Shown piece after piece: positions 2,542 to 23,544 of a stretch of DNA of 37,759 nt. A program made the position numbers and the translations under genes. Every line of letters starts with the position of its first letter. Position 1 is the first letter of the stretch. Origin of the DNA: Rhodocyclales bacterium RIFCSPLOWO2_02_FULL_63_24 (GTDB lineage Bacteria; Pseudomonadota; Gammaproteobacteria; Burkholderiales; Rhodocyclaceae); the NCBI GenBank assembly GCA_001828935.1, contig MHZX01000014.1:1-37759 (forward strand), written 5' to 3'. The notes below the pieces were generated by a model. That model searched no databases, was not told where the DNA came from, and saw only the letters and a program-made list of their open reading frames with translations.

Positions 2542-2576
2542 TAGCATGGCGGGATGCCTGCCGCCATTCCGTTACC

Positions 2577-3482
2577 ATGAATCCGCTGATTCTCGACGGT
2601 GCCGCCGTGCGGCGCCTGCTCACCCTCGACGCCTTGCTGCCGGCCATCGAAGCCGCGCTGATCGAGCTTTCCGCCGGCCGCGCCACGCAGCCGCTGCGTA
2701 CCGTGATGGAACTGCCGTCGCCGGGCAGCCTGCTCTTCGTCAAGCCGGCGCTGATCGGCCAGGCCTTGGCCACCAAGCTGATCACCCAGGTGCCGGACAA
2801 CGCCGCCCGCGGTCTGCCGACCATGATCGCCACCATCGTCCTGATGGACCCGCACAGCGGCGCGCCGCTGGCCGTGATGGATGCCACCTGGCTGACCGAA
2901 CTGCGCACCGCCGCCGTCTCCGCGGTCGCCACCCGGGCCCTGCGCGACCGGACGCCGAAGACCGTTGCCATCCTCGGCGCCGGCCGGCTCGCCCGTAGCC
3001 ATGCGCTGGCTTTGCGCGCCGTGGTGCCGGTCAGCCAGATCCGTGTCTGGAGTCGCAATCCGGAAAACGCCGGGCGCTGCGCCGCCGACATCGGCGGCAT
3101 CGCCAGCGCCAGCGCCGAGGCAGCGGTAAGGGATGCCGACATCGTGGTCACGGTGACCAATGCCAGCACGCCGGTGCTCATGGGCCGCTGGCTCAAGCCC
3201 GGCGCCCTGGTGCATGCGGTCGGCGCGCCGCGCCCGACCTGGCGCGAACTTGATGACGAGGCAATGCGCAACTGTGTCATCGCCGATCGGCGCGAGGCTG
3301 CCGAAACCGAGTCCGGCGACGTGATCCTCTCCGGGGCCAGGGTGCACTGCGAAATCGGCGAAGTGCTGGCCGGCCAGGTGCGGCTGGCCGAGGGCACGAC
3401 GGTGATCTTCAAGGCGTTGGGGCAGGCGGTGGAGGATGCCGTCGCGGCGCGGCTGGTGTATCAAGCGGCGGCGCCAGGATAG
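2577..3482 (+). CDS. Ornithine cyclodeaminase / mu-crystallin family NAD(P)-dependent enzyme
   Basis: A 301-residue protein with the layout of the ornithine cyclodeaminase / alanine dehydrogenase / mu-crystallin family. It has a catalytic-type Lys in ATKLIT (K67), the conserved LTELRTAA segment (R110) and a Rossmann nucleotide loop GAGRLARSH (134-142). Family members deaminate ornithine to proline, reduce ketimines or interconvert alanine and pyruvate; the substrate cannot be assigned here. The frame stays open upstream into the previous gene, but the ATG at 2577 gives the family-typical N-terminus (LDGAAVRRLL). It follows the GGDEF-EAL gene by 35 bases, so it may be cotranscribed. It is the only plainly metabolic gene in the window, which makes its place among regulators odd. 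Confidence 0.88.
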   Translation: MNPLILDGAAVRRLLTLDALLPAIEAALIELSAGRATQPLRTVMELPSPGSLLFVKPALIGQALATKLITQVPDNAARGLPTMIATIVLMDPHSGAPLAVMDATWLTELRTAAVSAVATRALRDRTPKTVAILGAGRLARSHALALRAVVPVSQIRVWSRNPENAGRCAADIGGIASASAEAAVRDADIVVTVTNASTPVLMGRWLKPGALVHAVGAPRPTWRELDDEAMRNCVIADRREAAETESGDVILSGARVHCEIGEVLAGQVRLAEGTTVIFKALGQAVEDAVAARLVYQAAAPG

Positions 3483-4714: not shown

Positions 4715-7700
4715 ATGAGGTTTTTCAACCGCCTGCGCACCCGCCTGCTGCTGATCGTGGCGCTGGCCACGCTGCCCCTGTTGCTCAACGCGCTTTATGG
4801 CTATCGGCAGGAGCGCCTCGCGGCGACGGCGAATGCAGAGCCGCAGATCCGCCAGATGCTGAGCGCTGCCCTGGCGCCCGAGGCCACCGTGCTCGACAAC
4901 CTGCGCCAGGTGCTGCGCATCATGGGAAATGCCGAAGAGTTGCAGGGAAGCGATCTCGGCCCGTGCAACGGGCTCGCCGATCGTCTGCTGCGTAGCCAGC
5001 AGAATTTCGCCAATATCGGTGCCGCGACCCTGGATGGCAAGGTGTTCTGCAGCGGGGTAGCCGCCGTCGCGGGCATCGATGTCGGCGATCGGGAATGGTT
5101 CAGGCAGGCACTGGCGCGGCGCGACTTGAGCGATGGCCAGGTGCTCGCCGACAGCGCCAGCGGCGGGCGCAGCGTGGTTTTCGGCTATCCCTTGCTGGAC
5201 CCGCAGGGACAGCCGCGCGCGATCCTGTTCGGCGCGCTGCACACCAACTGGATCGCGCGGATCGTGGACGAAACGCCGGTCGGTCCCGGTTGGTACGTCG
5301 CGGCCCACGCCATCGACGGTTACGTGATTGCCCGTCGTCCCGACGCCGAGGCCCTGGCCGGGCAGCTGCAGCCGGGCCATGAAGTGCTGCGCCTGATCCG
5401 CACCTGGCCCGGCGTCATGGTGCACGAATTGGCCGGGCCGGACGGCGTGCGCCGGCTGTACGGCGTGGCGCCGATGGCGGCAGCCAGTGGCGCCATTTAC
5501 CTGGTGATCGGCGCACCGCCCGATCTGATCTTTGCCGACATCGACGCGCGCTTCCGGCAATCGCTGCTGCTGACGCTGCTGGTCGGCCTGGCCTCGTTCG
5601 CGCTGGCCTGGCTGGCGATCAAGCGCGACATCGTCGGCTTTTCCAGTGCGATCGGACGGGCCATGCAGCGCGTCGGCGCGGGCCGGCTCGACGCTCGCGT
5701 CGAGTCGACCAGTGCCGTGGTCGAGTTGCAGTCGATCAGCGAAGGCTTCAATCGCATGGTGCAGCAGATCGACACGCTGGACACCCAGCACCGGGTGGAT
5801 ACGGCGGCGCTGCGCCAACTCAATACGGTGCTCGACGCGGTGATCAACTCGGGCGACGCCGTGATCTACGTGTTCGACCTCGCCGGCCGTTGCCTGCTGG
5901 CCAACCAGTCATTCGCGCGGATGGTCGGCAGCACGCCGGAACGCATGTTGGGACAGGTGCGCTCGGAGTTCCTGCCGATCGAGACGGCGCGCCAGCATGG
6001 CGACAATGATCGCCAGGTGGCCGCATCCGGCAAGGCCGTGACGCTGGAAGAGGAGGTTGCGCTGCCCGGCGACGCGAAGCAGACCTATCTGTCGGTGAAG
6101 TTCCCGCTGCGCAACGAGGCCGGCGCCGTTTACGCCGTCGGCGGCATCTCGACCGACATCAGCGAACGCAAGAAGCTCGAAATCGAGCGCCGGCTGGCCG
6201 CGATGGTCTTCGATGCCAGCGCTGAAGCCATCATCGTCACCGACGCCCGGCGCCGCATCCTTCAGGTCAATCCGCGTTTCTCGGAGATCACCGGCTATGC
6301 CCCGGCCGAGGTCATCGGCCGCAAGCCGGGACTGCTCAATGCCGGCGTGCAAGGTACGGCCTTCTACGCCGGCGCGTGGGCGCGGCTGAAAGCCGAAGGC
6401 GCCTGGCAAGGCGAGATCACCAGCCGTCGCCAGGACGGCTCGCTTTATCCGGCCTGGCTGTCGATCTCGGCGGTGCGGGACGCAGGCGGCGCCGTGGCCT
6501 ATTACATCGGTTTGTTCTCCGACCTGACCCAGCGCAAGGCGCTCGATCAGAAAGTGAGGCAATTGCTCAATTTCGATGCGCTGACCGGCCTGCCCAACCG
6601 TACGCTGTTCCTCGACCGCATGCAGCAGGCGCTGCATGCGGCTGCGCGCCACAAGAGCGGCGTCGCGGTGTTCTGGATCGACCTGGTGCGTTTCCGCGTG
6701 CTCAACGACACGTTCGGCCATGCCACCGGCGATCGGGTTCTGACCGAAGTTGCCCGCCGCATCGAACGGGTCGCCCGGGCGGGCGACAGCACGGCGCGTT
6801 TGTCGGCCGACGAGTTCGGCCTGCTGATGATCGGCTTCGATCGCGACAGCGATATCGGTCTGCTGGCGCAGCGGGTGCTCGACGCGATTGCCGAGCCGCT
6901 GGCACTGGACGGCAAGCGGATGGCGCTGGGCGCCAACATCGGCATCGGCGTTTACGCCAAGGACGGCGGCAGCGCCGAAGAACTGCTGAAGGCCGCCGAC
7001 GTCGCGCTGGCGCGGGCCAAACTGGCCGGGCGCGACAGCTTCCGTTTCTTTGCCGCGGGCATGGACGTCGATGCCGAACGGCGCCTGCGGCTCGAAGCGG
7101 AACTGCGCAATGCGCTCGCCGCTGGGCAGTTGAGCCTGCGCTACCAGCCGCAGATCGATCTGGCGGCGGGCCGCGTCTGCGGCATCGAGGCGCTGATGCG
7201 CTGGACGCATCCGGTGCTGGGGCCGGTTTCGCCGGTCGAGTTCATTCCCATCGCCGAGGAAGCCGCGCTGCTGCCGTCGATCGGCGCCTGGGCCTTACGC
7301 GAAGCCTGCCGCCAGAACAAGGCCTGGCTCGACGCCGGCCTGCCGCCGCTGCCGATGGCGGTGAATCTTTCGCCGCGGCAGTTCCGCCAGCCCGACCTGG
7401 CGGACAGGATCGAAAGCCTTCTGGCCGAGACCGGCTTGCCGCCGGCGCTGCTGGAACTGGAACTGACCGAGTCGGCTTTCGTCGGCGACGTGGTCGAGGC
7501 TGCCGCCATCGTGCAGCGCCTCAAGGCGCTCGGCCTGCGGCTGGCGCTGGGCGGCTTCGGCACCGGCTATTCGTCCTTGTCCAGTCTGTCCGGGTTTCCC
7601 TTCGACAAGATCAAGATCGACCAGAGTTTCGTGCGCGACATCACCACCAACCCGGCCAACGCGGCGATCGTCACCGCCAGCATCGCCATGGCACGCAGCC

Positions 7701-8263
7701 TCGACCTGGTGGCGCTGGCCGAGGGCGTCGAGACCGACGCGCAGATGAACTTCCTGCGCACCCGGCAGTGCGAGGCGATCCAGGGCTACCTGTTCAGCGA
7801 GGCGCTGCCGGCGGCGGACCTGACCGCGCTGCTGGTCGCCGGCCGCGGCCTGAAAGTCGGCGCTGGCGGGACGGCGCAGCAGCAGATTCTGCTGTTGGTG
7901 GATGACGAACCCAATATTCTCAGCGCCCTGAAACGCCTGCTGCGGCGGGACGGTTACGAAATCCTGACGGCGGAGGGCCCGCAAGCCGCCTTCGAACTGC
8001 TGGCGCGCCACGCGGTACAGGTGATCGTCTCCGATCAGCGCATGCCGGAGATGAACGGCACCGAATTTCTCGAACGCGCCAAGCGTCTCTACCCCAATAC
8101 CGTACGCATCATCCTGTCCGGCTACACCGATATCGACAGCATCACCGAAGCCATCAACCGCGGCGCGATCTATCACTTCCTGACCAAGCCATGGGACGAC
8201 GACACGCTGCGCGCCCAGGTGCGCGAAGCCTTCCGCGTCGCGCAGGGGTTTGCCCGGGCTTAG
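4715..8263 (+). CDS. Membrane sensor-HAMP-PAS-PAS-GGDEF-EAL-REC protein with degenerate catalytic motifs
   Basis: A 1182-residue protein. One TM helix at about 9-28, a periplasmic sensor of about 250 residues (Cache-like; two Cys at 84 and 112), a second TM at about 283-302, HAMP about 303-355, PAS about 370-485 and 490-610, GGDEF about 615-780, EAL about 795-1040 and a C-terminal receiver about 1057-1178 (D1107, K1158). The GGDEF motif reads SADEF (697-701), and the usual DLD metal segment reads DLV. The inhibitory RxxD (R688-D691) is kept. EAL is present (825-827), but the two metal-binding Asp of DDFGTG are Gly (GGFGTG, 946-951). By family knowledge neither activity should survive, so the protein may bind cyclic-di-GMP or act by contact. 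The ATG at 4715 is the first start giving the TM helix; its ribosome site is weak. Confidence 0.92.
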   Translation: MRFFNRLRTRLLLIVALATLPLLLNALYGYRQERLAATANAEPQIRQMLSAALAPEATVLDNLRQVLRIMGNAEELQGSDLGPCNGLADRLLRSQQNFANIGAATLDGKVFCSGVAAVAGIDVGDREWFRQALARRDLSDGQVLADSASGGRSVVFGYPLLDPQGQPRAILFGALHTNWIARIVDETPVGPGWYVAAHAIDGYVIARRPDAEALAGQLQPGHEVLRLIRTWPGVMVHELAGPDGVRRLYGVAPMAAASGAIYLVIGAPPDLIFADIDARFRQSLLLTLLVGLASFALAWLAIKRDIVGFSSAIGRAMQRVGAGRLDARVESTSAVVELQSISEGFNRMVQQIDTLDTQHRVDTAALRQLNTVLDAVINSGDAVIYVFDLAGRCLLANQSFARMVGSTPERMLGQVRSEFLPIETARQHGDNDRQVAASGKAVTLEEEVALPGDAKQTYLSVKFPLRNEAGAVYAVGGISTDISERKKLEIERRLAAMVFDASAEAIIVTDARRRILQVNPRFSEITGYAPAEVIGRKPGLLNAGVQGTAFYAGAWARLKAEGAWQGEITSRRQDGSLYPAWLSISAVRDAGGAVAYYIGLFSDLTQRKALDQKVRQLLNFDALTGLPNRTLFLDRMQQALHAAARHKSGVAVFWIDLVRFRVLNDTFGHATGDRVLTEVARRIERVARAGDSTARLSADEFGLLMIGFDRDSDIGLLAQRVLDAIAEPLALDGKRMALGANIGIGVYAKDGGSAEELLKAADVALARAKLAGRDSFRFFAAGMDVDAERRLRLEAELRNALAAGQLSLRYQPQIDLAAGRVCGIEALMRWTHPVLGPVSPVEFIPIAEEAALLPSIGAWALREACRQNKAWLDAGLPPLPMAVNLSPRQFRQPDLADRIESLLAETGLPPALLELELTESAFVGDVVEAAAIVQRLKALGLRLALGGFGTGYSSLSSLSGFPFDKIKIDQSFVRDITTNPANAAIVTASIAMARSLDLVALAEGVETDAQMNFLRTRQCEAIQGYLFSEALPAADLTALLVAGRGLKVGAGGTAQQQILLLVDDEPNILSALKRLLRRDGYEILTAEGPQAAFELLARHAVQVIVSDQRMPEMNGTEFLERAKRLYPNTVRIILSGYTDIDSITEAINRGAIYHFLTKPWDDDTLRAQVREAFRVAQGFARA

Positions 8264-8416
8264 CCGCTTGACGCGACGCCGGCGACGGCACCGAACTTGC
8301 GCTGCGTCAGCCTGCCGGAAGCGATCCAGCGTTCCGAGACCCAATTCCCGTTCGCTTCCGCGTGTCTTTCCGCTTCGGCGGTCGTCATGGTGTCTAAGAT
8401 GCCGTAACTGACTAAC

Positions 8417-8445
8417 TTGACAGATAGACCATTCAAGACTAAATT
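8417..8445 (+). promoter_or_regulatory. Strong sigma70-type promoter of the HTH-REC/FIST operon
   Basis: A perfect -35 TTGACA (8417-8422) is followed by a 17-base spacer and TAAATT (8440-8445, 4 of 6 to TATAAT). Transcription would start near 8452, about 25 bases before the ATG at 8477. The stretch is AT-rich beside the GC-rich genes. It sits in the 213-base gap after the preceding gene and is the only convincing promoter before the five-gene operon. The rest of the gap (8264-8410) shows no gene I would support. Confidence 0.65.
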
Positions 8446-8476
8446 AAAGCTGTGATGGTTGACCGGGAGCCGGGTG

Positions 8477-9040
8477 ATGGCGGACGTTCTGACAAGCAGT
8501 GAGGCGGCGCGGCTGTGCGGCGTCAGTTTCCGCACCGTAATCCGCTGGATCGAACGCGGGCAGTTGCAGGGCTACCGGCTGCCCGGGCGGGGCGACTATC
8601 GCGTGCCGGTGGCCGAATTGCGCCGCTTCATGCAGGCCAACGCGATTCCCGAGCCCCCGGAGCTGCAACGCGACCTGCCGCGACGCATCCTGATCGTCGA
8701 GGACGAGCCGGACATGGCGCGCGCCATGAGCCGGGTGCTGAAGCGCGCCGGTTTCGAAACGGCCAGCGCCGGCGACGGCTTCCAGGCCGGGTTGATGTTG
8801 CATTCCTACCAGCCTGGCCTGATGACGCTGGATTTGCGCATGCCGGGAGTGGACGGCTTTGCAGTGCTGCGGTCCTTGCGCGAGAAGCCGCTTCCATTCA
8901 GTTGCAAAGTGCTGGTGGTGTCGGCCGATACGGCGCGTCTGGACCAGGCGCGCGCCCTGGGGGCGGACGGGGTGTTGGCCAAGCCGTTTGCGAATGCAGA
9001 GTTGTTGAGTGCCGTGCGCAGCCTGTACGGTGTGGAATAG
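8477..9040 (+). CDS. Response regulator with N-terminal excisionase-type HTH and C-terminal receiver
   Basis: A 187-residue protein. Residues 4-53 form a MerR/excisionase-type helix-turn-helix (LTSSEAARLCGVSFRTVIRW, then a wing with GDYRVP). Residues 70-185 form a receiver with acidic residues in VEDEPD, phosphoacceptor D119 (TLDLRMPG) and K169 (LAKPF). The order is the reverse of most DNA-binding response regulators, where the receiver comes first. The ATG at 8477 has GGGAG about eight bases upstream; an in-frame TTG at 8459 is less likely. It is first in an operon with FIST and kinase genes, so the kinase at 10282 is the obvious candidate partner (inference). It probably controls transcription, perhaps of this operon. 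Confidence 0.87.
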   Translation: MADVLTSSEAARLCGVSFRTVIRWIERGQLQGYRLPGRGDYRVPVAELRRFMQANAIPEPPELQRDLPRRILIVEDEPDMARAMSRVLKRAGFETASAGDGFQAGLMLHSYQPGLMTLDLRMPGVDGFAVLRSLREKPLPFSCKVLVVSADTARLDQARALGADGVLAKPFANAELLSAVRSLYGVE

Positions 9041-9078
9041 CATTGTTTCCGCCGAGGCTGGCGTCGAGGAGGGGTGAA

Positions 9079-10272
9079 ATGAACATCGCAACTTCATGGA
9101 GCACTGCAACGGGAACCCGGGCCGCCTTCGATCAGGCCATGACGCGCCTTCACGACAGGATGGGAGGCTACCCCGGATATCTGCTGGTCTATTTCACCGA
9201 GAGTTATCCGGCCGAGGAGCTTCATGCGGCGCTGGCCATGCTGCCGCCCTCGGTCAAGGTTCAGGGCTGCAGCTCATGCCTTGGCGTGATGACTGAAGAG
9301 GGAATGCACGCCGAGGATGGCCGCGCCTTGGGGCTGCTGGGCATCCGCGACGAACTGGGCGCCTATGGCGTCGGCGCGGCGGCGCTGGCAGGTGATCCGC
9401 GTGCCGCCGCGCGGGCCGCCCTGGAAGCGGCCCTGGCGGATTCGGGCCGCCCCGGGGAACTGCCGGACATCGTCTGGTTGAATGCCGCGCCCGGTCACGA
9501 GGAAGCCGTGCTCCAGGGCGTCTGCGACGTGGTGGGACGCAACGTGCCGGTGCTGGGGGGTAGCGCCGGCGACAACCACGTCGCCGGGGCCTGGCGCCTG
9601 CTGACCCGGCAGGGCGCCGCCGGCGACGCCGTGGTGGTGTCGGTCATGATGCCGGCGCTGCATGTTTCCAGTTCGTTCCAGAGCGGCTATCTGCCCACCA
9701 CCAGCAGCGGCATCGTGACTTCGGCCACCGGCCGCATCGTCCATGCCATCGACGGCCGGCCGGCGGCGGCGGTTTACCGGGAATGGACCGGCAGCCTGCT
9801 CGACGGGGTGCCGGCCGCGGGCGGCAATGTCCTCTCGCTGACCACCCTGGCGCCCCTGGGGCGGATGCTGGGCACGCTCGGCGAGGTACCGTTCTATACC
9901 CTGTCCCATCCCGACGCGCTGCTGGCGGACGGTTCGCTGAGCCTGTTCGCCGAGGTGGCCGCGGGCGAACAACTGGTGCTCATGACCGGCTCCAAGGAGC
10001 GTCTGGTGGCCCGCGCCGGCCGGGTGGCCAGGTCCGCCATCGACCTCGGCGGCTTCGCCGCGGAGGCGATCCTGGGGGCAGTCGTGGTGTACTGCGCCGG
10101 CTGCATGCTGACGGTGCAGGATCGCCTGCCCGACGTGGTGGCCGAACTCAACAACGCCCTGGGAGGCAAGCCGTTCATCGGCATCTTCACCTTCGGCGAG
10201 CAGGGCTGCATGCTGGACGGCCACCCGTCGCACGGCAACCTGATGATTTCCGCAATGGTCTTTTCCGAATAG
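9079..10272 (+). CDS. FIST domain signal-transduction protein (FIST_N-FIST_C)
   Basis: A 397-residue soluble protein matching the FIST family. FIST_N spans about 30-225 (GCSSCLGV at 63-70; VLGGSAGDN at 158-166) and FIST_C about 226-395, ending in the typical HGNLMISAMVF. FIST proteins are proposed to sense small ligands, possibly amino acids, and are often encoded beside histidine kinases or GGDEF proteins, as here. The Cys residues in GCSSC (64 and 67) and CAGC (339 and 342) could support metal or redox sensing, which is speculative. The frame is open far upstream through the previous gene, but the ATG at 9079 has a strong GAGGAGGGG ribosome site. It lies 38 bases after the HTH-REC gene and 9 before the kinase. 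Confidence 0.88.
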   Translation: MNIATSWSTATGTRAAFDQAMTRLHDRMGGYPGYLLVYFTESYPAEELHAALAMLPPSVKVQGCSSCLGVMTEEGMHAEDGRALGLLGIRDELGAYGVGAAALAGDPRAAARAALEAALADSGRPGELPDIVWLNAAPGHEEAVLQGVCDVVGRNVPVLGGSAGDNHVAGAWRLLTRQGAAGDAVVVSVMMPALHVSSSFQSGYLPTTSSGIVTSATGRIVHAIDGRPAAAVYREWTGSLLDGVPAAGGNVLSLTTLAPLGRMLGTLGEVPFYTLSHPDALLADGSLSLFAEVAAGEQLVLMTGSKERLVARAGRVARSAIDLGGFAAEAILGAVVVYCAGCMLTVQDRLPDVVAELNNALGGKPFIGIFTFGEQGCMLDGHPSHGNLMISAMVFSE

Positions 10273-10281
10273 GGCACGACA

Positions 10282-11736
10282 ATGGCTGCGAGCGACGCGA
10301 CGCGCGAAATATCGCTTGAGGAACTGCGGGAGACCATGGTCGACCTGGAGCAGGCGCGCCGCCACGAGCGGCAACTTCGCTTCGAAAGCGAGGGCCTGCT
10401 GGAGGGCCTGCAAGCGCTGACCGAGGCACGCGACACGGGGCAGGTGTTCGATAAGCTGAGCCGGGTGTTGCGCCGCTTCGTGCCCTTCGAAGATGCCTTC
10501 ATGCTGTTGGCGGGAGCGAGCGGGGAACTCCGCACGGTCCGCGCCACCGCGCCGGTTTTCGAGGGTTTGCACTGGCGTGCCGGGAAGATGTTGCAGCGGG
10601 TGCTGGACGGGCAAATCGTTTGCGTATTCGATTTGGCAGAGGTGCCGGAATGGCAGGATCAACCCGCGGCGGTGCGCAACCGGGCGCGATCGGCGATCCA
10701 CGCCCCGCTGCGCAGCGAAACCCTTAACGCCGTGCTGGTGTTCGTGCATGCGCAGCCGGCATTTTTCACCGCGGATCAGGTGCGGCTGCTGGAGCGGTTT
10801 GCGCCCCTCGGCAACCAGGCGCTGATCAGCATCGAGTACCGCCAGCAACTGGAGGAGCGTGCTCGCGAGTTGCGCGCGGCCAACGACGCCTTGGAAACTT
10901 CCCATCTGCAACTGTTGCAGTCCGAGAAAATGGCCTCCATCGGCCAACTGGCGGCCGGCGTGGCCCACGAAATCAATAATCCGGTCGGCTTCGTGCTTTC
11001 CAATCTCGGCAGTCTGGCGCACTACCTGGACGATTTCCTGGAGGTGCTGTCCGCCTACGAAAGGCTGGAAGCGGAGCTGCCGCCATCGCTACCGGGCTTG
11101 TCCGCGCTGCGGGCGCTCAAGGCGCGGGTAGACCTGGGCTACCTGAGACGGGACGTCCTGCTGTTGCTGCAGGAGTCGCACGACGGCTGCACGCGGGTGC
11201 GCGATATCGTCCAGGACCTGAAGGATTTCTCCCGCGCTGGCGGCGCCGAGGTCTGGCAGGCGGCCAACGTCGAGGCCGGTCTGGACAGCACCCTCAACAT
11301 CACCGCGAACGAGTTGAAGTACAAGGCCGAACTGGTCAAGGAGTTCGCCGGCGTACCGGATATCGAGTGCCTGCCCTCGCAGTTGAACCAGGTGTTCCTG
11401 AACCTGATCGTGAACGCCGCCCAGGCGATCGAGCAGGGCGGCAAGGTCTGGGTACGCACCGGCCGCGAAGGCGATGCCATCTGGGTCGAGGTCGCCGACG
11501 ATGGCCGCGGCATCCCGGCGGAGAACCTCGGCCGTATCTTCGACCCCTTCTTCACCACCAAGCCGGTGGGGCAGGGCACCGGCCTCGGCCTGGCCCTTTC
11601 CTACGGTATCGTGCGCAAGCACAACGGCCGCATCGAGGTAGACAGCAAACCCGGCTGCGGCAGCCGCTTCCGGGTCTGGTTGCCGATCAGGCAAGTCGCC
11701 GCAGGGACCGAAGAAACGCACAGGAGAGACCCATGA
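10282..11736 (+). CDS. GAF-domain histidine kinase
   Basis: A 484-residue soluble kinase. A coiled N-terminus (about 10-45) leads to a GAF-like sensor (about 50-185), a coiled coil (185-215), the dimerisation/phosphoacceptor domain with H229 in GVAHEINNP, and an ATPase domain (about 340-470) with the N box (N374, N378), DDGRG (406-410), FFTTKPVG and GTGLGL (432-437). Its core matches that of four other kinases in the window, including the long linker [13 protein letters not shown]. It has no membrane segment, so the signal is probably cytoplasmic, possibly handed over by the FIST protein nine bases upstream. Its stop overlaps the next start by four bases (ATGA), which argues for translational coupling with the binding-protein gene. 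Confidence 0.92.
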
Positions 11737-12554
11737 AAGCGATGAAACCGTGGCAGACCATGATGCTGCTGCTGGTGCTGTTGGGAGGTGGGAATACGGT
11801 TGCGCAAACAGGAGGCCGGTTGTTGCTTAGCGGCTCCACCACCATGGCGCCGCTGATGATCGAGGTCGCCAAACGCTTCCAGACCCTGCACCCCGGGATC
11901 GAAATCCAGGTGCAACTGGGCGGTTCCGGCCGCGGCGTCAGCGACGCGCGCCAGGGCAAGGCGGACATCGGCATGGTGTCGCGCAATCTCGGCGAGGCGG
12001 AGCGCGATCTCCACGCCATACCCATCGCCCGCGACGGCGTGGCGATGATCGTGCACCGCGACAACCCGGTACGCTCCCTCAGCGACCGGCAGTTGCTCGA
12101 CCTCTACACGGGCAGGATCGCCAACTGGCGCCAGCTTGGCGGCCGCGACGCGCCGCTGCATGTGCTCGCGGCCACGCCGGAGGGCGGCTCGTCGGAACTG
12201 ATCAGCCATTACCTGCAACTGCCCTACGAACAGATCAAGGCGCAGCGGCGCATCGGCCCCAACGCGGAGCGCATCGCGGCGGTCGCCGCCGATCCCCAGG
12301 CCGTCATCTGGGTCTCGCTGGGCGAGGCCGAGCGCATGGCCGCGGCGGGCGTTCCGATCAAGCTGCTGGCGGTGGGCGGCGTCGCCGCCAGCAGCCGGGC
12401 CGTCCGCAACGGCGACTATCCGATCGCGCGCCCGCTGACCCTGGTCACGCGGGGAACGCCGACGGGAGCGGCGCGGAGCTTCGTCGAGTTTTGCGTTTCG
12501 TCCCAGATAACCGAGCATATCCTGGCTTTCGATTTCGTTCCCTACCTGGACTAA
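11733..12554 (+). CDS. Secreted PstS-like substrate-binding protein
   Basis: A 273-residue protein with an N-terminal signal peptide (hydrophobic 10-19, likely cleavage after A24 in TVAQ). The mature part resembles the phosphate-type periplasmic binding fold: SGSTTMAPL (33-41), GGSGRGVSD (63-71), SRN (83-85) and a late SFVEFCVSS segment. These glycine/serine loops bind phosphate or another oxyanion in PstS. No ABC permease or ATPase is encoded nearby, so a sensing role is more likely than transport. The start at 11733 (AGGAGA at 11722-11727) overlaps the kinase stop, and the next gene, a membrane sensor, begins 12 bases after its stop. It may present ligand to that sensor (inference). Confidence 0.88.
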   Translation: MKAMKPWQTMMLLLVLLGGGNTVAQTGGRLLLSGSTTMAPLMIEVAKRFQTLHPGIEIQVQLGGSGRGVSDARQGKADIGMVSRNLGEAERDLHAIPIARDGVAMIVHRDNPVRSLSDRQLLDLYTGRIANWRQLGGRDAPLHVLAATPEGGSSELISHYLQLPYEQIKAQRRIGPNAERIAAVAADPQAVIWVSLGEAERMAAAGVPIKLLAVGGVAASSRAVRNGDYPIARPLTLVTRGTPTGAARSFVEFCVSSQITEHILAFDFVPYLD

Positions 12555-12566
12555 GGATCCCCGACC

Positions 12567-15500
12567 ATGCCCGCCTGGTTCGAACAACTCAGCCTGCGCG
12601 CCAAGCTCGCCCTGGGCTTCGGCACCCTGATTGGCCTCATGCTGGTCGGCGGCACCACGGCTCTGCTCGGCCATGGGCGCACTCTCGCGGCGGCGGAAGC
12701 CTTTCTCGCGGGCGACAACCGCATCGCCGAACTCAGCGTGGAAAGCAGCGCCGCCATGAGCAAGGCAAGGCGCTACGAGAAGGAATTCCTGCTCAAACAA
12801 CAAGTCTTCAGCCACCAGGAAGCCAAGTCCCGCTACGTCACCCTGGTGGCAAGCCAACTCGCCGTGGTGCGGGAAAACATGACGAGTATCCGCGGCCTTG
12901 CCGGCAACGCCGAGATTACGCGGGAGATACAGGAGATCGAGGCGGTCACGCGTCGCTATGAAACCGGCTTCCTGCGGGTGGTCGAACTGTACGGCCGCCT
13001 CGGCCGGGTGGACACCGGTCTGGAGGGGCAGTTCCGCGTCCACGCCCATGCCATCGAGGAGTTACTGGCACAAGGCGCGCCGGAACATCTGCGCACCGAT
13101 CTCCTCGCCCTGCGCCGCCACGAGAAGGATTTCATCGCGCGCGGCCTGAGCCGTCACGCCGAGGCTTTCGAGGCAGCCGCCGATCGTTTCCAGGAGCACG
13201 TGGCGCGGGCCGCCCTGGCGACCGGACGCAGGGCCGAACTATTGCGCCTTGCCGAGCAGTACCGGATGCGGTTTCGTGAATACGTGGCGACCGAGGCCGA
13301 GATCGATGCGGCTACTCTGGAGTATCTGGGCGCGGTACATAAGATAGAACCCCAACTGGAGAAACTCCACGCCCGTGCCGACATGGCCGTGACGGCGACC
13401 CGCGAGACCCTGCAACGCCTGGGCCGGATCACCACCCTGACGGTGATCGGGGTGGGCCTCGCGGCCGTCCTGCTGGGGTTGCTGGTGGCCGGCTTCATCG
13501 TGCGCGATGTCAACCGTGCGGTGGCGGCGTGCGTGAATTTCGCCAGCCGGCTCGCCGGTGGCGACTGGACGGCGCGGCTGCCGCTGCCCACCGGCGCCAA
13601 CGAATTCGCGCGCTTGGCGGGCGCCCTTAACCGCATGGCCGATGCCATGCAGGAAGAGCGCCGCCGCGACGAGCGGCAGGCGGCGGAACTGCAGCGCCTG
13701 AACCGTACCCTGAACATGCTGTCGCGTTGCAATGAAGCCCTGGTGCGGGCCGAAAGCGAAGCCGGACTGTTGGATGCTGTCTGCCGGCAGATTGTCGAAG
13801 GCGGCTACCGCTTGGCTTGGGTGGGTTTCGCCCGCCATGATGAGGGCAAGAGCGTCGAGCCCGCCGCCTTCGCCGGCATCGACGGCGACTATGTGGCGGC
13901 GCTCAAGCTGAGCTGGGGCGACGACGAGCGCCGGCGCGGTCTGGGCGGGCGCGCCATCCGCGAAGGCCGGCCGGCGGTGGCGCGGCATATCCTCACCGAC
14001 GCGGCATTCGAACCCTGGCGCGACAATGCGGTGGAGCGCGGCTTCGCCTCCTGCATCGCGCTGCCGCTGAAGACCAAGAGCAAGGTGCTGGGCAGCCTCG
14101 GCATCTACTCGGCGGAAGCCGACGCCTTCGATGCGGAGGAAGTCAGACTGCTGCAAGAGTTGGCCGACGACCTGGCTTTCGGCATCGTCAGCCTGCGCCA
14201 GGCGGAGGCACGCGAGCAGGCCGAACGGGCACTCGACTACCAGGCCAACTTCGACCGCGTGACCGGCCTGGCCAACCGTAACCTGTTCGGCGACCGGCTG
14301 GCCCAGGCCATCGTACACGCGGCCCGCAGCGGCCGCCAGGTGGCGGTGCTGGTGTTGGGTCTGGATCGCTTCAAGGCGATCAACGACAGCTTCGGTCATG
14401 ACGCCGGCGACGCCTTGCTGCGCCACGTCGGCCGCCAGTTGTCGGCCAGTCTGCGCGAAGGAGACACGGTAGCGCGCTTGTCGGGCGACGAGTTTGCCGT
14501 GGCGATGGGCGACCTGGCGCGGGAGGCCGACGTGGCGCCCCTGGTACTCAAGCTGTTGACCGCGGTGCTGGAGCCGGTCAGCCTGGAGAGTCGCGACGTG
14601 TCCACCAGCGCCAGCATGGGCGTCAGCCTCTATCCCAAGGACGGCATGGAGGCCGGCGGCCTGCTGCTCAACGCCGATGCGGCGATGTCCAGCGCCAAGG
14701 CGATGGGCGGCAACCTGTTCCGCTTCTACGCGCCGGAAATGAACGAGCGCGTTTCGGCGCTGTTCGCCATGGAATCGGACTTGCGCCGTGCGCTGGAGCG
14801 CGAAGAGTTGCGGGTGTATTTCCAGCCGCGGGTGAATTTGGCCAGCGGCGAAATATCGGGCGCCGAGGCCTTGTTGCGCTGGCAGCATCCGCAGCAGGGC
14901 TTGATGCCACCGGCGGAGTTCATTCCTGTGGCCGAGACGACGGGCCTGATCCTGCCGATCGGCGCGTGGGTGATCGGCAGCGTTTGTCGCCAACTGCGGG
15001 CCTGGCTCGATGCAGGCCTGGCGGTGCCGCCGGTGGCGGTCAACCTGTCGGCGCGCCAGTTCCGTCAGGAGAACCTGGCCCAGGTGATCCGCCAGGAACT
15101 GGCGGACAACGCGCTGGAAGCGAAGTACCTGGAGATGGAAATCACCGAGAGTACCCTGATGGACGATCCGGAGGCGGCGACCGTCATCCTGCAAGAGCTA
15201 CGGGGGATAGGCATCAAGCTGTCGCTGGATGATTTCGGTACCGGCCATTCGTCGCTGAGCCGGCTGCGGCGTTTGCCCATCGACCATTTGAAGATCGACC
15301 AGTCCTTCGTCCGCGACCTGACCACCGATCCCGAAGATGCAGCCATCTGCCTGGCCATCATCGACCTGGCGCACAATCTGCGCCTGACGGTGATCGCCGA
15401 AGGGGTGGAATCCGAGGGACAGGCGAACTACCTGCGCCAACACCGCTGCGACGAGATGCAGGGCTACTATTTCGGCCGCCCCCTGCCGGTCGCGGAATTC

Positions 15501-15944
15501 GAGCAGCTGCTGATCCAGCGCAGGACTCTGGCCTTGCCGGCTCAGGCGCCGGACGAGCGCCGGACACTACTGCTGGTGGACGACGAGGCAAACATCCTGT
15601 CTGCCCTCAAACGCGTCCTGCGCCGCGACGGCTACGAAATCCTCACTGCCGGCAGCGCCCGCGAAGGCCTCGATCTCCTATCCACCCATCGGGTGCAGGT
15701 GATTCTGTCGGACCAGCGCATGCCGGAAATGAACGGCACCGAGTTTCTTTCGCGGGTTCGCGATCTTTATCCCGACACCGTGCGCATGGTGTTGTCCGGT
15801 TACACCGAGCTCAACAGCATCACCGAGGCGATCAACCGCGGCGCCATCTACAAGTTTCTTACCAAGCCGTGGGACGACGAGGCCTTGCGCATCGACGTGC
15901 GCGAGGCGTTTCGGCATCATGAGTCGGCACCGCTGAGAAGTTAG
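12567..15944 (+). CDS. Membrane helical sensor-HAMP-GAF-GGDEF-EAL-REC protein; cyclase likely inactive
   Basis: A 1125-residue protein. TM helices lie at about 12-34 and 289-312, enclosing a mostly helical periplasmic region of about 255 residues (HBM or four-helix type, as in chemoreceptors). Then HAMP (about 313-365), GAF (about 383-540), GGDEF (about 555-720), EAL (about 735-985) and a C-terminal receiver (about 1000-1115; D1049, K1100). The cyclase site reads SGDEF (639-643), and the first metal Asp is Gly (LGLDRF, G598), so synthesis is doubtful; RxxD (R630-D633) remains. The phosphodiesterase looks complete: EAL (767-769), EITES and DDFGTG (888-893). Start ATG 12567 follows AAGGA. It ends the five-gene operon and parallels the 4715-8263 protein in its C-terminal half. 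Confidence 0.92.
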   Translation: MPAWFEQLSLRAKLALGFGTLIGLMLVGGTTALLGHGRTLAAAEAFLAGDNRIAELSVESSAAMSKARRYEKEFLLKQQVFSHQEAKSRYVTLVASQLAVVRENMTSIRGLAGNAEITREIQEIEAVTRRYETGFLRVVELYGRLGRVDTGLEGQFRVHAHAIEELLAQGAPEHLRTDLLALRRHEKDFIARGLSRHAEAFEAAADRFQEHVARAALATGRRAELLRLAEQYRMRFREYVATEAEIDAATLEYLGAVHKIEPQLEKLHARADMAVTATRETLQRLGRITTLTVIGVGLAAVLLGLLVAGFIVRDVNRAVAACVNFASRLAGGDWTARLPLPTGANEFARLAGALNRMADAMQEERRRDERQAAELQRLNRTLNMLSRCNEALVRAESEAGLLDAVCRQIVEGGYRLAWVGFARHDEGKSVEPAAFAGIDGDYVAALKLSWGDDERRRGLGGRAIREGRPAVARHILTDAAFEPWRDNAVERGFASCIALPLKTKSKVLGSLGIYSAEADAFDAEEVRLLQELADDLAFGIVSLRQAEAREQAERALDYQANFDRVTGLANRNLFGDRLAQAIVHAARSGRQVAVLVLGLDRFKAINDSFGHDAGDALLRHVGRQLSASLREGDTVARLSGDEFAVAMGDLAREADVAPLVLKLLTAVLEPVSLESRDVSTSASMGVSLYPKDGMEAGGLLLNADAAMSSAKAMGGNLFRFYAPEMNERVSALFAMESDLRRALEREELRVYFQPRVNLASGEISGAEALLRWQHPQQGLMPPAEFIPVAETTGLILPIGAWVIGSVCRQLRAWLDAGLAVPPVAVNLSARQFRQENLAQVIRQELADNALEAKYLEMEITESTLMDDPEAATVILQELRGIGIKLSLDDFGTGHSSLSRLRRLPIDHLKIDQSFVRDLTTDPEDAAICLAIIDLAHNLRLTVIAEGVESEGQANYLRQHRCDEMQGYYFGRPLPVAEFEQLLIQRRTLALPAQAPDERRTLLLVDDEANILSALKRVLRRDGYEILTAGSAREGLDLLSTHRVQVILSDQRMPEMNGTEFLSRVRDLYPDTVRMVLSGYTELNSITEAINRGAIYKFLTKPWDDEALRIDVREAFRHHESAPLRS

Positions 15945-15948: not shown

Positions 15949-16821
15949 CTAAAGCCTGTCGAGCAGACTGCGATAGGTCAATGCCTCGGCGATGACGGCG
16001 CGCAGCGCGCTGGCCTCCCAGGGTTTGCCGATGAAGTGATAGACGCCGGCAATATTTATCGCGTTCATAAGTATTTCCGGATTGGCGTGGCCGGACATCA
16101 GGATACGGACGCAACGCGGGCAGACCTGTCGCAGTTGATGCAACAGTTCGATGCCGTCCATTTGCAACATGGCATAGTCGGCGATCACCAGATCCGGGCA
16201 GCGGTTCCGTGCCAGTTCCAGTGCCGTCGCCGCCGAGGTGGTGTCGATGATTTCAAACAGGGGATGGGCGCCGCCTGTGACGCGGCCACCGAGCGACAGC
16301 TCGCGGACCAGGGCTTTCAGCAGCGATGGCTCGTCATCGACCAGCAGCAGGCGATAGGGCCTTTGCAATTGCCCCGCATCGTCGCCGGCGCCCGCCAGCG
16401 CTGGCGGGCGCTGAAGGTCGCGCCGCAGCTGGCGTTGATGCAGCGCCAGTGCGATACGGCTCTTGAGGTCGTATTCATGCCAGGGCTTCGCAATCAGGTG
16501 GTCGACCCTGGCCGCGTTGATCGCGGCGATGGCGCCGTCGGCATCGATCGAACCGGTGAGCAACAGGCGCACGGCGTCGGGTTGCAAATCGCGCAGCCGG
16601 TCCAGAAAAACGATGCCATCCATGTCCGGCATGTGGTAATCGACGATGGCTGCATCGAAGTAACCGTCTGCCTCGGCGGCCCGCTGCAAGGCCTCGGTCG
16701 GCAAGCGGAAGGTTTCTATCTCGATACCCTCGGTGCCTATGTGCGGCGGCCGCAGCAGTTCGCGGCGCAATGCATTGAGGACGTGTTGATCGTCATCGAC
16801 GACAAGAAGTCGGCACAGCAT
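15949..16821 (-). CDS. Tandem receiver protein (REC-REC)
   Basis: A 290-residue protein with two receiver domains and no other output. REC1 (about 3-130) has DDD 9-11, D61 (AIVDYHMP) and K112 (LIAKPW). REC2 (about 156-285) has DD 162-163, D215 (VIADYAML) and K266 (FIGKPW). Its ribosome site AGGTG overlaps the stop of the upstream hemerythrin kinase, with seven bases between the genes, so coupling is likely and that kinase is the best candidate phosphodonor (inference). It resembles the tandem receiver at 3596-4603 but lacks that protein's long REC2 insertion. Its 3' end lies only four bases from the stop of the convergent plus-strand gene, leaving no room for a private terminator. Confidence 0.89.
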   Translation of the reverse strand: MLCRLLVVDDDQHVLNALRRELLRPPHIGTEGIEIETFRLPTEALQRAAEADGYFDAAIVDYHMPDMDGIVFLDRLRDLQPDAVRLLLTGSIDADGAIAAINAARVDHLIAKPWHEYDLKSRIALALHQRQLRRDLQRPPALAGAGDDAGQLQRPYRLLLVDDEPSLLKALVRELSLGGRVTGGAHPLFEIIDTTSAATALELARNRCPDLVIADYAMLQMDGIELLHQLRQVCPRCVRILMSGHANPEILMNAINIAGVYHFIGKPWEASALRAVIAEALTYRSLLDRL

Positions 16822-16828
16822 GTTGCAC

Positions 16829-18268
16829 CTATTCCGCTGGCGGGCCGTCGATCGGCAGCCAGAGCCGGATGCGGCTGCCGGCGCCGGGCGCGCTGTCGAC
16901 CTCGAAGCTGCCGCCGTGGGTGTGCACGATGTCCCAGGACAGCGACAGGCCGAGCCCGGTCCCTTGTCCCACCGGTTTGGTGGTGAAGAAAGGCTCGAAC
17001 AGCCGGCGTCTGGTTTCCTCTTCCATGCCGATGCCGTCGTCGGCCACTTCGATCCACACCTGGCCGTCGTGCAGCGGATCGGCCAGCCCGCTGCGCAGGG
17101 TGATGGTGCCGTGCGCGGGAATGGCCTGCGCGGCGTTGAGCAGCAGGTTCATCAGCACCTGGTTGATCTGCGCCGGGAGGCAGCGCACCGGCGGCAGCGG
17201 CTGCAATTCGCGCCGGATTTCGGTCTTGTACTTCAGTTCGTGCCAGACCACGTTGATGGTGCTCTCCAGCCCGGCCAGCAGGTCCGCCTGCTGCCACTCG
17301 GCCTGGTCGACATGGGAAAAGTCCTTGAGGTTGGCGACGATCTGGCGCACCCGCTCCAGCCCGTCGCGCGATTCGGCAAGCAGCGCGACGAGATCCTGAC
17401 GGACGAAGGGTAGTTCGATGGCTTGCGCCGCGGCCTGCGCGGGCGGGCAGTCGGCGGCGGCATCGATGACGCGCAGCAGGTCCTCGACGTAATGCCCGAG
17501 CGTGCCGAGGTTGGAGCTGACGAAGCCGACCGGATTGTTGATTTCGTGCGCCACGCCGGCGGCGAGCTGGCCAATGGCGGCCATCTTTTCCGATTGCAGC
17601 AACTGGTTCTGCGTTTCGCTCACCCTCTGCAGCGACGCCGCGAGTTCGCGCTGCTCCGCCTGCAACTTGTGGTTGGCCGCGGTCAATTCGCGGGTGCGCG
17701 CCGCCACTTCCGCTTCGAGCGAGCTGTTGGCGCGCATCAGGTCGCCGTTTATGTGTGATAACACGCCATAGAGATTGTGCAGCGCATCCAGCAGGGCGTC
17801 CGTCGAGCGCTCCTCCGCCTGCGGCTCCGCGGTCAGTGGCGCCACGCTGGGGGCGGCGCCATTGACGCGCCGGATCTCGCGTGCCATGGCCTGGTCCTCG
17901 CCGAGGATGTGATAGGAAAGCCAGGCGACGAGGAAACCGTGCAGGGTGTCGGCCGGCGCGCTCATCAGGCCGCGGGCGCGCCACATGGTCGTCAGTTGCG
18001 CGACGAAATTGCGATGGTTGTTGACGTGATGTTGGAATTGCGCCGCCGGTATTCCGGTTTCCTGCATCAGGCGCTCCTCGTCGCGGAAATGGGTATTGGC
18101 ATAGTCGGCCAACTCCCGAAAGATGTCCTCAAGCGAGGTCTTGTCGGACAGTTGCGGGTCGAGCAGCATGTCGCCGACCCGATTGACGATGTCGACCAGG
18201 CGGTGATGCTGGGTATCGACCAGTTCGATGCCGGTCGTGAAGCGCTCGTTCCAGACAAAAGCCTGCAT
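16829..18268 (-). CDS. Hemerythrin-domain histidine kinase (putative oxygen sensor)
   Basis: A 479-residue soluble protein. Residues 1-130 form a bacteriohemerythrin with a full set of di-iron ligands: H21 (or H22), H60, E64, H81, H85, H120 and D125, with the family spacing. A coiled coil (about 155-225) links it to a kinase core with H241 (GVAHEINNP) and an ATPase domain with [13 protein letters not shown] and GTGLGL. Hemerythrins bind oxygen at a non-heme di-iron centre, so oxygen or redox control of the kinase is the obvious reading. The frame is open further upstream, but the ATG at 18268 has AGGAA ahead of it and gives the proper hemerythrin start (FVWNERF). It is followed by the tandem receiver, its likely partner. 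Confidence 0.92.
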   Translation of the reverse strand: MQAFVWNERFTTGIELVDTQHHRLVDIVNRVGDMLLDPQLSDKTSLEDIFRELADYANTHFRDEERLMQETGIPAAQFQHHVNNHRNFVAQLTTMWRARGLMSAPADTLHGFLVAWLSYHILGEDQAMAREIRRVNGAAPSVAPLTAEPQAEERSTDALLDALHNLYGVLSHINGDLMRANSSLEAEVAARTRELTAANHKLQAEQRELAASLQRVSETQNQLLQSEKMAAIGQLAAGVAHEINNPVGFVSSNLGTLGHYVEDLLRVIDAAADCPPAQAAAQAIELPFVRQDLVALLAESRDGLERVRQIVANLKDFSHVDQAEWQQADLLAGLESTINVVWHELKYKTEIRRELQPLPPVRCLPAQINQVLMNLLLNAAQAIPAHGTITLRSGLADPLHDGQVWIEVADDGIGMEEETRRRLFEPFFTTKPVGQGTGLGLSLSWDIVHTHGGSFEVDSAPGAGSRIRLWLPIDGPPAE

Positions 18269-18315
18269 GCCTTGCAATTCCTTTCGACGAATCGACGGTC
18301 GGCAGGCAGCGACGT

Positions 18316-19704
18316 TCAGGACCCGCCGCTGCTGCGCTGGATCGGCACGATGACGCGGAAGCGCGTACCGACCCCCACGGTGCTGTCGACCTCTATGCGT
18401 CCGCCATGTTTCTTTACGATGCCGTAGGACAGCGAGAGCCCCAGTCCGGTGCCCTTGCCGACCGGCTTGGTGGTGAAGAAGGGGTCGAAGATCCGCCGCA
18501 GGTTCTCTTCGGGAATTCCCTCGCCGCTGTCCGCCACTTCCACCCACACCTCTTGGCCATTGCTGCCGCAGCGCAGCGTGATGGTGCCGCGCCGGCCTTC
18601 CGGCATCGCCTGGGCCGCATTGACCATCAGGTTCATGAAGACCTGGTTGAGTTGCGGCGGCAGGCACTCCACCTGCGGTATGTCGGCGTATTCCTTGACC
18701 ACCTCGGCGCGATACTTGATCTCGTTGTTCACGATATTCAGGGTCGAATCCAGGCCTGTGCGCAGATCGACCCACTCCCAATTCTGCCCGCTGTCGATGC
18801 GCGAGAAATCGCGCAGGTCCTGGACGATCCGGCGCACCCGGACGATGCCCTCCAGCGACTCTGCGAGCAACACGGGAATGTCCGTCTTCAAGTAGTCGAA
18901 ATCGACCTCGGCCTTGAGCGCCGCCACCTCCTCCAACCAGCGCGTGCAGGCCTCATCCGCGCTCGCGGCCAGTTCCGGGTTCAGCTCGAAATGTTCCATC
19001 ACGCGCAGCAATTGTTCGAAGTAGCCCTGCAGCGATTTCATGTTCGATTGCAGGAAGCCGATCGGGTTGTTGATCTCGTGCGCCACCCCCGCCGCGAGTT
19101 GTCCGATCGACGCCAGCTTCTCGGATTGCATCAGTTGCTCTTGCGCCTGCGCCAGTTCCCCGGTGCGTTTCGTCACCAGTTGCTCCAGTTCCGTCTGGTG
19201 GCGCAGCAGCGCATCCTCGGCGCGGTGGCGTTCGCTGACGTCCTGCAGCGTCTCGATGGCGCCGATCACCTGGCCCTTGGCATCGGTCAAAGGCGCGGCG
19301 GTGAAGTACAGCCAGCAGCCTCCGTCGCCGAGGAAGGGAAAATAGTCCTCGGCCTCGAAGGCGCCGGCGACCACCGGCGAGCGGGTCAGGCGCTTGTTGC
19401 GGTACAGGTTCGTGAGCTGGTCGCGCGGCGCGCCGTCGACGATGAGGTCGGCCATGGTCGGCCGCTCGACCTCGTAAAAAATCCGCCAGTGATTGGCGGT
19501 GCCGACCATGTCGGCGGCCGGCCGGCCGGTGATTTCCTGGCAGGCGCGGTTCCAGTGGGTGATCCGGTGCTGCTCGTTGATGACGAATGTCGGCACCGGG
19601 CTGCCGTCGATGATCTGCGCCAGCAAGGTCTCGGGCCGCACCTGGCCGTTGTCGGGTGTCGCATCGCGTCCGGCGTGCGGGTGCATCTCTTCGTCGCCGG
19701 TCAT
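18316..19704 (-). CDS. PAS-domain histidine kinase
   Basis: A 462-residue soluble kinase. A PAS domain (about 25-160) contains the unusual HWRIFY (72-77) and a long loop before LYFTAAPL. A coiled coil (160-195) leads to the phosphoacceptor domain (H209, GVAHEINNP) and the ATPase domain with [13 protein letters not shown] and GTGLGL. The start is uncertain: the ATG at 19704 has no clear ribosome site, and an in-frame ATG at 19686 would remove only six residues. It lies 27 bases after the REC-HD-GYP gene and 47 before the hemerythrin kinase, all on one strand. The REC-HD-GYP protein upstream is a plausible partner (inference). The ligand is unknown. Confidence 0.91.
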
Positions 19705-19731
19705 GATTGCGCTTGCGTGCCTCGCGGCGGC

Positions 19732-21075
19732 TCAGACCGATTGCGCAACATATACGGTAACCGGTTTCTGTTCGGCGGCTTCGAGCCGCTTCAACTGCTC
19801 GATTTCGCCCTGGTCGAGGACGTGGCCGCGGGCCAGCAGCAGATAGCCGTCCTGATGCAGCAAGTCGCGGGTGAGCTGCATGCCGGGCTGCAGCGATTCC
19901 GGCCGCCGCGGCAGTTCGGGGAAGTCTTCCGGCCGCGACTCGGCCAGCAGTTGCGAAAACTGGTCGACGATGCTCGGATCGTAGCGCTTGCCGCGATTGT
20001 CGACCAGGAAGCGCAGGGCGTCGGCGGCATTGAGGGCGCGCGCCACCAGCGTCCCGTTTTGCAGCGCGTCGTAGTCGTTGGTCACCGTGAGCACGCGCGC
20101 GCCCAGCGGTATCCCCATGCCGGACTTGCCGTCCGGATAGCCGCGGCCGTCGAACAGTTCGTGGTGGTGGCGAATCAGGGTCGATGCGCCGTGCAATTGT
20201 TCGATCGGCATCAGCAGCAATTCGCCCTTGGCCGGATGTTTCATGATTTCGGCGCGGGCCGCGGGGCCCAGGCTGTTGAACGGGCGCGCAATGGTGTCCG
20301 CGGCCATGCCGAGCTTGCCGATGTCGTGCAACAACGCGGCGAGGAAGCATTCCTGCACCTCTGCCTCGCTCATCTGCATGCGGCGGGCCAGCCGTCGCGT
20401 CAGCTCCGCGACTCGCCGCGAGTGGCCGGCCAGCTCGCCGCCGTGCAGTTCCATGATGCTGGAAAACACATGCACGGTATTGACGAAGCCCTGCTTCAGC
20501 GATTTCAGCGCCTGCTGCAGTTGTTCGGTGCGTTTGGCGACCGTCTGCTCCAGCCCGGCGTTGAGCTGGCGCAGTTCTTCGTTCTGGCGCTGCGTCAGCG
20601 CCACCAGACGTGCGTTTTCCCGCATCAGCTGGCGGTGGGCCAGCGCCTGCTGCACGGCGAGCAGCAGGTCGTCGTCGTCCCATGGCTTGCTGATGTAGCG
20701 CCAGATCTTGCCGCGATTGATGGCGGCCACCGTGGCGCCGGCATCGGCGTAGCCGGTCAGCAGGATGCGCTTGGTATCCGGCCAGCGGGTGAACACCTGT
20801 TCCAGGAACTGCGCGCCGTCCATCTCGGGCATGCGCATGTCGGAGAGCACCAGGTCCGCGGGCTCCTGTGCGAGCAAGGCCAGTCCTTCCGCGCCCGAGG
20901 TGGCGCTGCGGATGGCGTAACCCTGGCCGCGGAAAGCCCGTTTCAGGGCGTTGAGGATGGAAGGTTCGTCATCGACGAACAGCAGTCGCGCCGGCGCCGT
21001 CGCCTCAGCCACCGGTGTCGCGTCGTCGCCGGCGCCGGGCTTGGGGTCTGGGGTAGCGCCGACATTCAGGTTCAT
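19732..21075 (-). CDS. REC-HD-GYP cyclic-di-GMP phosphodiesterase (RpfG-like)
   Basis: A 447-residue protein. Receiver about 29-150 (D79 in LSDMRMPEMDG, K130 in YISKPW), coiled coil about 150-195, then an HD-GYP domain about 196-380 with H218, HD 250-251 (LLHDIGK), HHE 304-306 and GYP 312-314. HD-GYP enzymes hydrolyse cyclic-di-GMP at a metal centre, and the receiver should gate this by phosphorylation, as in RpfG. A C-terminal module (about 390-447, LQPGMQLTRDLL then GYLLLARG) is common in this subgroup. The frame is open upstream, but the ATG at 21075 overlaps the kinase stop by four bases (ATGA), so the two are translationally coupled and likely a cognate pair. Confidence 0.92.
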   Translation of the reverse strand: MNLNVGATPDPKPGAGDDATPVAEATAPARLLFVDDEPSILNALKRAFRGQGYAIRSATSGAEGLALLAQEPADLVLSDMRMPEMDGAQFLEQVFTRWPDTKRILLTGYADAGATVAAINRGKIWRYISKPWDDDDLLLAVQQALAHRQLMRENARLVALTQRQNEELRQLNAGLEQTVAKRTEQLQQALKSLKQGFVNTVHVFSSIMELHGGELAGHSRRVAELTRRLARRMQMSEAEVQECFLAALLHDIGKLGMAADTIARPFNSLGPAARAEIMKHPAKGELLLMPIEQLHGASTLIRHHHELFDGRGYPDGKSGMGIPLGARVLTVTNDYDALQNGTLVARALNAADALRFLVDNRGKRYDPSIVDQFSQLLAESRPEDFPELPRRPESLQPGMQLTRDLLHQDGYLLLARGHVLDQGEIEQLKRLEAAEQKPVTVYVAQSV

Positions 21076-23464: not shown

Positions 23465-23544
23465 TCCCGAATTTTGTGCCCATCGAAACCTGTGCCCGCC
23501 TTCGATTCCGATGCCGCACGCATGGTACGGATTGGCGCGCCCTG

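Follow-up and report, generated by a model that had tools for sequence, protein, structure and literature searches.

The window analysed here, a stretch of 37,759 nucleotides, is one complete contig (G000:C14) of the draft genome of Rhodocyclales bacterium RIFCSPLOWO2_02_FULL_63_24, which comprises 147 contigs. Within it lie five consecutive open frames, all on the + strand and separated by 38, 9, −4 and 12 bases in order, for a helix-turn-helix (HTH) receiver protein (P0001), a FIST protein (P0002), a histidine kinase (P0003), a PstS-like binding protein (P0004) and a membrane protein with cyclic di-GMP (c-di-GMP) domains (P0005). Frame coordinates and Pfam matches agree with the genes, spacing and domains given in a preliminary description of this DNA. 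The overlap and the tight spacing suggest one transcript, and the five genes look like a single transcription unit, to which we refer as the operon.

Table 1. Features of the five-gene locus, in positions of the window
Feature	Positions	Strand	Basis
Candidate sigma-70 promoter, TTGACA-17-TAAATT	8417..8445	+	motif scan
P0001, HTH_17-receiver protein, 187 amino acids (aa)	8477..9040	+	Pfam HTH_17 + Response_reg
P0002, FIST/FIST_C protein, 397 aa, subfamily distinct from NosP-like proteins	9079..10272	+	Pfam, alignment
P0003, histidine kinase, 484 aa	10282..11736	+	Pfam GAF + HisKA + HATPase_c
P0003 GAF-type N-domain, residues 42-195, recurrent in FIST-subfamily partners	10405..10866	+	hidden Markov model (HMM)
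P0004, PstS-like binding protein, 273 aa	11733..12554	+	Pfam PBP_like_2
P0005, membrane c-di-GMP protein, 1125 aa	12567..15944	+	Pfam HAMP + GAF + GGDEF + EAL + Response_reg
P0005 periplasmic helical sensor, residues 35-284, like TorS/McpS (helical bimodular, HBM)	12669..13418	+	predicted fold
P0005 GAF domain, no match to FIST-partner HMM	13752..14186	+	Pfam
P0005 GGDEF + EAL domains, motifs SGDEF, RxxD, EAL, DDFGTG intact	14244..15482	+	
P0005 C-terminal receiver	15570..15893	+	Pfam

A single sigma-70 promoter had been proposed for the operon. The candidate is the only promoter-like match on either strand between 8100 and 16300, a count that lies within the chance expectation of 0.8 (standard deviation 0.9). 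It falls in a stretch of 47% G+C (8380-8476) of a window with 65% G+C, and this low-G+C setting makes it plausible. The signature motifs look intact: H229 in HEINN, the N and G boxes, SGDEF with the RxxD I-site, EAL, DDFGTG and the receiver aspartates. The HisKA match of P0003 reaches 24.7 bits, below the Pfam cut-off of 26.9.

The preliminary description took the five genes for a self-contained signalling system and proposed a search for their conserved co-occurrence in this order. That search found the order in none of 15 FIST-subfamily loci (38-79% identity; three under 5 kb, and others cut off on one side) and in none of 13 binding-protein loci, which took in 12 of the 14 genomes other than the window's own (G216 and G140 left out). 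In the 15 FIST-subfamily loci, BLAST at 1e-4 found no match to the HTH domain, to the binding protein or to the HBM sensor. The nearest named FIST relative (79% identity) lies on a contig of Candidatus Accumulibacter adiacens (locus L003); Candidatus Accumulibacter is an organism known from phosphorus removal in wastewater. There, the frames after the FIST-kinase pair do not encode the binding protein, one of them being a putative nifB. Upstream lies the tail of a receiver-like frame, of which 202 bases are present; by eye, this tail (1-113) appears internally shortened relative to the receivers of the window. Because no second example occurs among the examined loci, a conserved five-gene system is rejected.

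At the level of pairs, the FIST gene and its downstream neighbour recur. Both the FIST (85.6 bits) and FIST_C (73 bits) matches of P0002 exceed their Pfam cut-offs, placing it in the FIST superfamily. The gene after FIST is readable in 14 of the 15 loci (the L004 contig ends) and lies on the same strand, coding for a kinase in 10 and a GGDEF-EAL protein in 4. The downstream protein usually has one GAF-type domain at its N-terminus. An HMM of this domain, built from 11 FIST-partner proteins, finds it in the held-out locus L004 (1e-26) and matches the downstream gene in 10 of 12 FIST loci not used for building, nine of them at 1e-13 or better; these 12 loci represent 11 genomes and 8 genera, with four loci from one genus. 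The HMM has no match elsewhere in the window, in 34 NosP-like FIST loci, in the 13 binding-protein loci or in 5 receiver-tail loci. It does not show the domain in four of the first 16 FIST loci (L045, L046, L047, L048) or in two of the 12 later ones (L124, L125). This module is a FIST protein followed by a protein with a recurrent GAF-type N-domain and an interchangeable output, either kinase or GGDEF-EAL. Co-occurrence of the two while the output varies is the behavior expected of a sensor and its receiver domain.

Across 31 genomes from the genus, only the window's own carries this FIST subfamily; the other eight FIST-positive genomes carry FISTs at 27-33% identity, of the NosP-like kind where tested. 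In even samples that include the window's own genome, relatives at E<=1e-30 occur in 6/300 genomes of the order, 6/369 of the class and 13/398 of the phylum. Further relatives are found in one alphaproteobacterial and two Acidimicrobiales metagenome-assembled genomes, and in plasmid records (one full-length at 41%, 7 partial); phage records gave no match.

The second recurrent pair is formed by the binding protein and a helical sensor. Relatives of P0004 adjoin an HBM-type protein in three of the 13 loci (G023, G162 and G256), and in one more (G092) the gene lies 256 bases from that of a four-helix-bundle GGDEF protein. The neighbor is a membrane GGDEF-EAL protein in the window, G023 and G162. 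In G256 it is GGDEF alone, in a separate frame that overlaps the HBM-HAMP frame, which may point to a split gene or a frameshift there. Within the genus the binding protein occurs in 2 of 31 genomes, the window's own and G023. G023 has another GGDEF-EAL gene upstream of the one for the binding protein (L080, 5140-12218), and the catalytic halves of its product and of the HBM protein are very similar.

Hydropathy of the first 420 residues of P0005 gives membrane segments at 14-34 and 285-316, in keeping with the two-segment topology first described. The sensor between them, folded from one sequence, is predicted to adopt a helical bimodular fold, with TorS and McpS as top structural matches, although helical bundles often reach similar Z scores. 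The Pfam HBM model is not among the matches of P0005 at E<=0.1, and a Protein Data Bank (PDB) sequence search with the sensor gave no match at E<=5. A 37-residue fragment in a 104-aa frame of another genome from the genus (L065, G001:C1:470446-470556) is 70% identical to sensor residues 60-96 and is perhaps a remnant.

What sets P0005 apart is its tail. Among the four HBM-type proteins seen linked to a binding protein, it is the only one with a C-terminal receiver. Receiver-tailed GGDEF-EAL proteins with no HBM match recur in these genomes: G092 has six, the L003 genome two and the window genome a further two. A tree of catalytic halves was built from 28 rows, without duplicates, segments longer than 520 aa or frames that had no near-complete GGDEF or EAL domain. 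It places P0005 together with one receiver-tailed protein from the L003 genome (94/78) and the HBM-only proteins elsewhere (94/92); many forks stay open. P0005 therefore looks like a chimera, with a front half of the kind found in binding-protein-linked sensors and a GGDEF-EAL-receiver back half of the recurrent receiver-tailed kind. Kinases like P0003 lie near receivers of the P0005-receiver family both in the window and in G092, where a row comprises two receiver-tailed enzymes, an HDOD protein, a GAF kinase (63%) and a further receiver. Since its receiver belongs to this family, both modules plausibly converge on P0005. The joining of the two sensor pairs is seen in the window genome only.

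Gene order, domains, conservation of the pairs, the fold model of the sensor and the pattern of halves were all computed. The reading that we consider most likely, at a probability of roughly 60%, is that of a composite operon whose two independent sensor pairs both signal to a single c-di-GMP enzyme. For the contacts, phosphotransfers and ligands of such a circuit, we infer the following. The FIST protein would sense a cytoplasmic ligand and, through the GAF-type N-domain of P0003, set the balance between the kinase and phosphatase activities of that protein, and P0003 would phosphorylate the C-terminal receiver of P0005. P0004 would bind a periplasmic solute and dock on the TorS/McpS-like helical sensor of P0005, which would integrate both inputs and shift between cyclase and phosphodiesterase activity. 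Several of these links had been drawn in the preliminary description and gain support as inference: FIST to kinase from the conserved pair, binding protein to periplasmic sensor from a pair that recurs without FIST and from the modelled fold, and kinase to the P0005 receiver from the position of P0003-like kinases near receivers of that family, which makes this phosphotransfer our best guess. If the circuit holds, P0005 naturally integrates two signals, one from a periplasmic solute and one from cytoplasmic FIST, and illustrates how integrators of this kind arise when a sensor half becomes joined to a catalytic half with a receiver tail.

A possible but clearly less probable explanation is that two unrelated modules merely adjoin. 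FIST and P0003 would then signal to another receiver protein, for example the Cache-PAS-GGDEF-EAL-receiver protein at 4715-8263, and P0004 and P0005 would form a periplasmic pathway of their own, with a receiver answering another kinase. Several observations point this way and weigh against convergence on P0005. P0003 is one of five such kinases in the window, and the receiver family is likewise represented there several times; the P0006 receiver shares 72% identity with the P0005 receiver, and it and the receiver of 28746-30794 lie nearby as competing targets of P0003. In addition, the two modules are apart in all other loci examined. On the other side stand the overlap and tight spacing, which suggest one transcript, and the receiver that P0005 alone carries among the four binding-protein-linked HBM-type proteins seen.

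An unlikely alternative is a plain NosP system, with FIST as a heme-based nitric oxide (NO) sensor acting through NahK- and NarR-like partners and the remaining genes as accessories. The parts are those of NosP-NahK-NarR and NosRPK, and the P0002 gene adjoins a kinase and a receiver-bearing c-di-GMP protein, a context described as frequent for NosP; the kinase NosK also has HEINN, as in P0003. The receiver portion of the NosR model has a match in the P0005 receiver, at 170.8 bits (cut-off 400), and P0002 itself has a weak match to the NosP model (NCBIfam NF041558). This match, however, reaches 43.9 bits against a cut-off of 450 and spans 100 positions, residues 140-239. Moreover, Cys67, His277 and Cys342 are present in 16/16 members of the subfamily and in 0/29 NosP-like proteins, which carry A23 S5 D1 at position 67, G23 A6 at 277 and R29 at 342 and differ at many further positions. 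The comparison set came from 34 loci, 29 of which gave a FIST frame of 300-520 aa; 21 of the 29 were scored with the NosP model, and the set itself is below the NosP cut-off throughout (L007, 74.7 bits). With its score far below the cut-off and its differing conserved residues, P0002 was not identified as NosP.

Of the other conserved residues, C339 and H385 are common to all 29 NosP-like proteins, and M302 and M389 to most. In 12 later FIST relatives, C339 and H385 are both at 12/12, H277 at 11/12, C342 at 8/12 and C67 at 9/11, one relative having no residue at that position. A C67/C339/C342/H277/H385 metal site, strong-looking on 16 sequences, is kept as a lead only because of the lower counts for C342 and C67. 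A fold model from five sequences has a mean predicted local distance difference test score of 55.7, with residues 195-306 under 50, too low to judge clustering of these residues, and a PDB sequence search with FIST gave no match at E<=1. Tentatively, we hypothesize that the FIST subfamily and its cognate GAF-type domain form an undescribed plug-in cytoplasmic module, which would sense a non-NO signal via a Cys/His pocket (C67, H277, C339, H385) and drive kinases or c-di-GMP enzymes. An acquired receiver would here have wired it to a binding-protein-controlled GGDEF-EAL enzyme, giving a two-compartment integrator. Subfamily and partner domain define a testable sensor pair, and the conserved Cys/His set in a protein with no NosP signature makes the question of its ligand a direct one.

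For P0004, whose N-terminus resembles a signal peptide by eye, the ligand may be other than phosphate. It has AATPEGGSSEL where L087, L088 and L092 have RDxSSGT, an arginine-SGT stretch that we take to be a phosphate motif. The stretch is also lost in the four sensor-linked relatives, of which L082 and L083 retain the arginine. The least probable of the readings considered is that P0004 simply binds phosphate for transport, as ordinary proteins of its kind do, with the c-di-GMP part incidental. In its favor are the PstS-like nature of P0004 (TIGR02136 at 148.8 bits, short of the cut-off of 206.6; a phosphate-binding protein in the PDB matched at 5e-36) and the ATP-binding cassette (ABC) permease and ATPase genes beside its relative L084. 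Against it are the lost stretch, the absence of an adjacent ABC transporter gene in the window and the HBM-type neighbors of 3 of its 13 relatives.

The first gene appears to stand apart from both pairs. The P0001 receiver shares only some 20-32% identity with the receivers set beside it, and no relative of the protein at E<=1e-30 was found in 299 other genomes of the order; scoring there covered the best 11 candidates of each genome and could have missed a distant one. One relative (35.6%) lies on a Methylomagnum plasmid, where genes for a receiver and a kinase come next. The proposed step from the kinase to P0001 thus finds no support, and P0001 is probably a locally recruited regulator.

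The surroundings are rich in signalling genes. In the upstream Cache-HAMP-PAS-PAS-GGDEF-EAL-receiver protein (4715-8263), whose receiver has 72% identity to the P0005 receiver, SADEF and GGFGTG replace GGDEF and DDFGTG, and both catalytic domains may be degenerate. On the − strand, 15949-30794 holds a dense cluster of P0003-like kinases and receivers, among them receiver-receiver, hemerythrin-kinase, PAS-kinase and receiver-HD proteins and a receiver-PAS-GGDEF-EAL protein beside an XylR_N/V4R-like PAS kinase (V4R below its cut-off). A gene of the ornithine cyclodeaminase/mu-crystallin family (2451-3482) also lies amid the signalling genes of the window.

The circuit had been presented as unfamiliar. 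It is less so than that, as operons of a FIST protein, a kinase and a receiver-bearing c-di-GMP protein are described as NosP-NahK-NarR in Legionella pneumophila and NosRPK in Burkholderia pseudomallei (PMC11237717, PMC12570481, PMC8846402). A literature search on titles and abstract openings gave no account of the FIST-GAF pair or of the five-gene combination. The window's FIST differs from NosP in score and conserved residues, and P0003, which shares HEINN with NosK, has a GAF-type input domain where NosK is described with no recognised sensory domain. P0005 is a membrane protein whose sensor is periplasmic and whose receiver is C-terminal, whereas the NosR receiver is N-terminal.

The second pair likewise has its counterparts. 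In NspS-MbaA of Vibrio cholerae, a system reported also from Sinorhizobium meliloti, the gene for a periplasmic binding protein overlaps or adjoins a GGDEF-EAL gene, and the binding protein controls MbaA (PMC8967002). Unlike NspS, P0004 is PstS-like rather than a polyamine binder, and in the window the GGDEF-EAL protein also has a receiver and shares its operon with a FIST-kinase pair. In Pseudomonas aeruginosa, CtpL, an HBM receptor (PMC6381276), offers its sensor domain as docking site to PstS (PMC4926252), as proposed here for P0005 and P0004; the output of CtpL, however, is chemotaxis, Pseudomonas pstS adjoins its transporter genes, and P0004 has lost the arginine-SGT stretch. TorT acts as a binding protein on the helical sensor of TorS, the best structural match of the P0005 model, but TorS is a histidine kinase and the output of P0005 is GGDEF-EAL-receiver. 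Each link of the proposed circuit thus has a described precedent in NosP-NahK-NarR, NspS-MbaA and PstS-CtpL, and the locus consists of ordinary parts, one unusual join and one under-described sensor pair.

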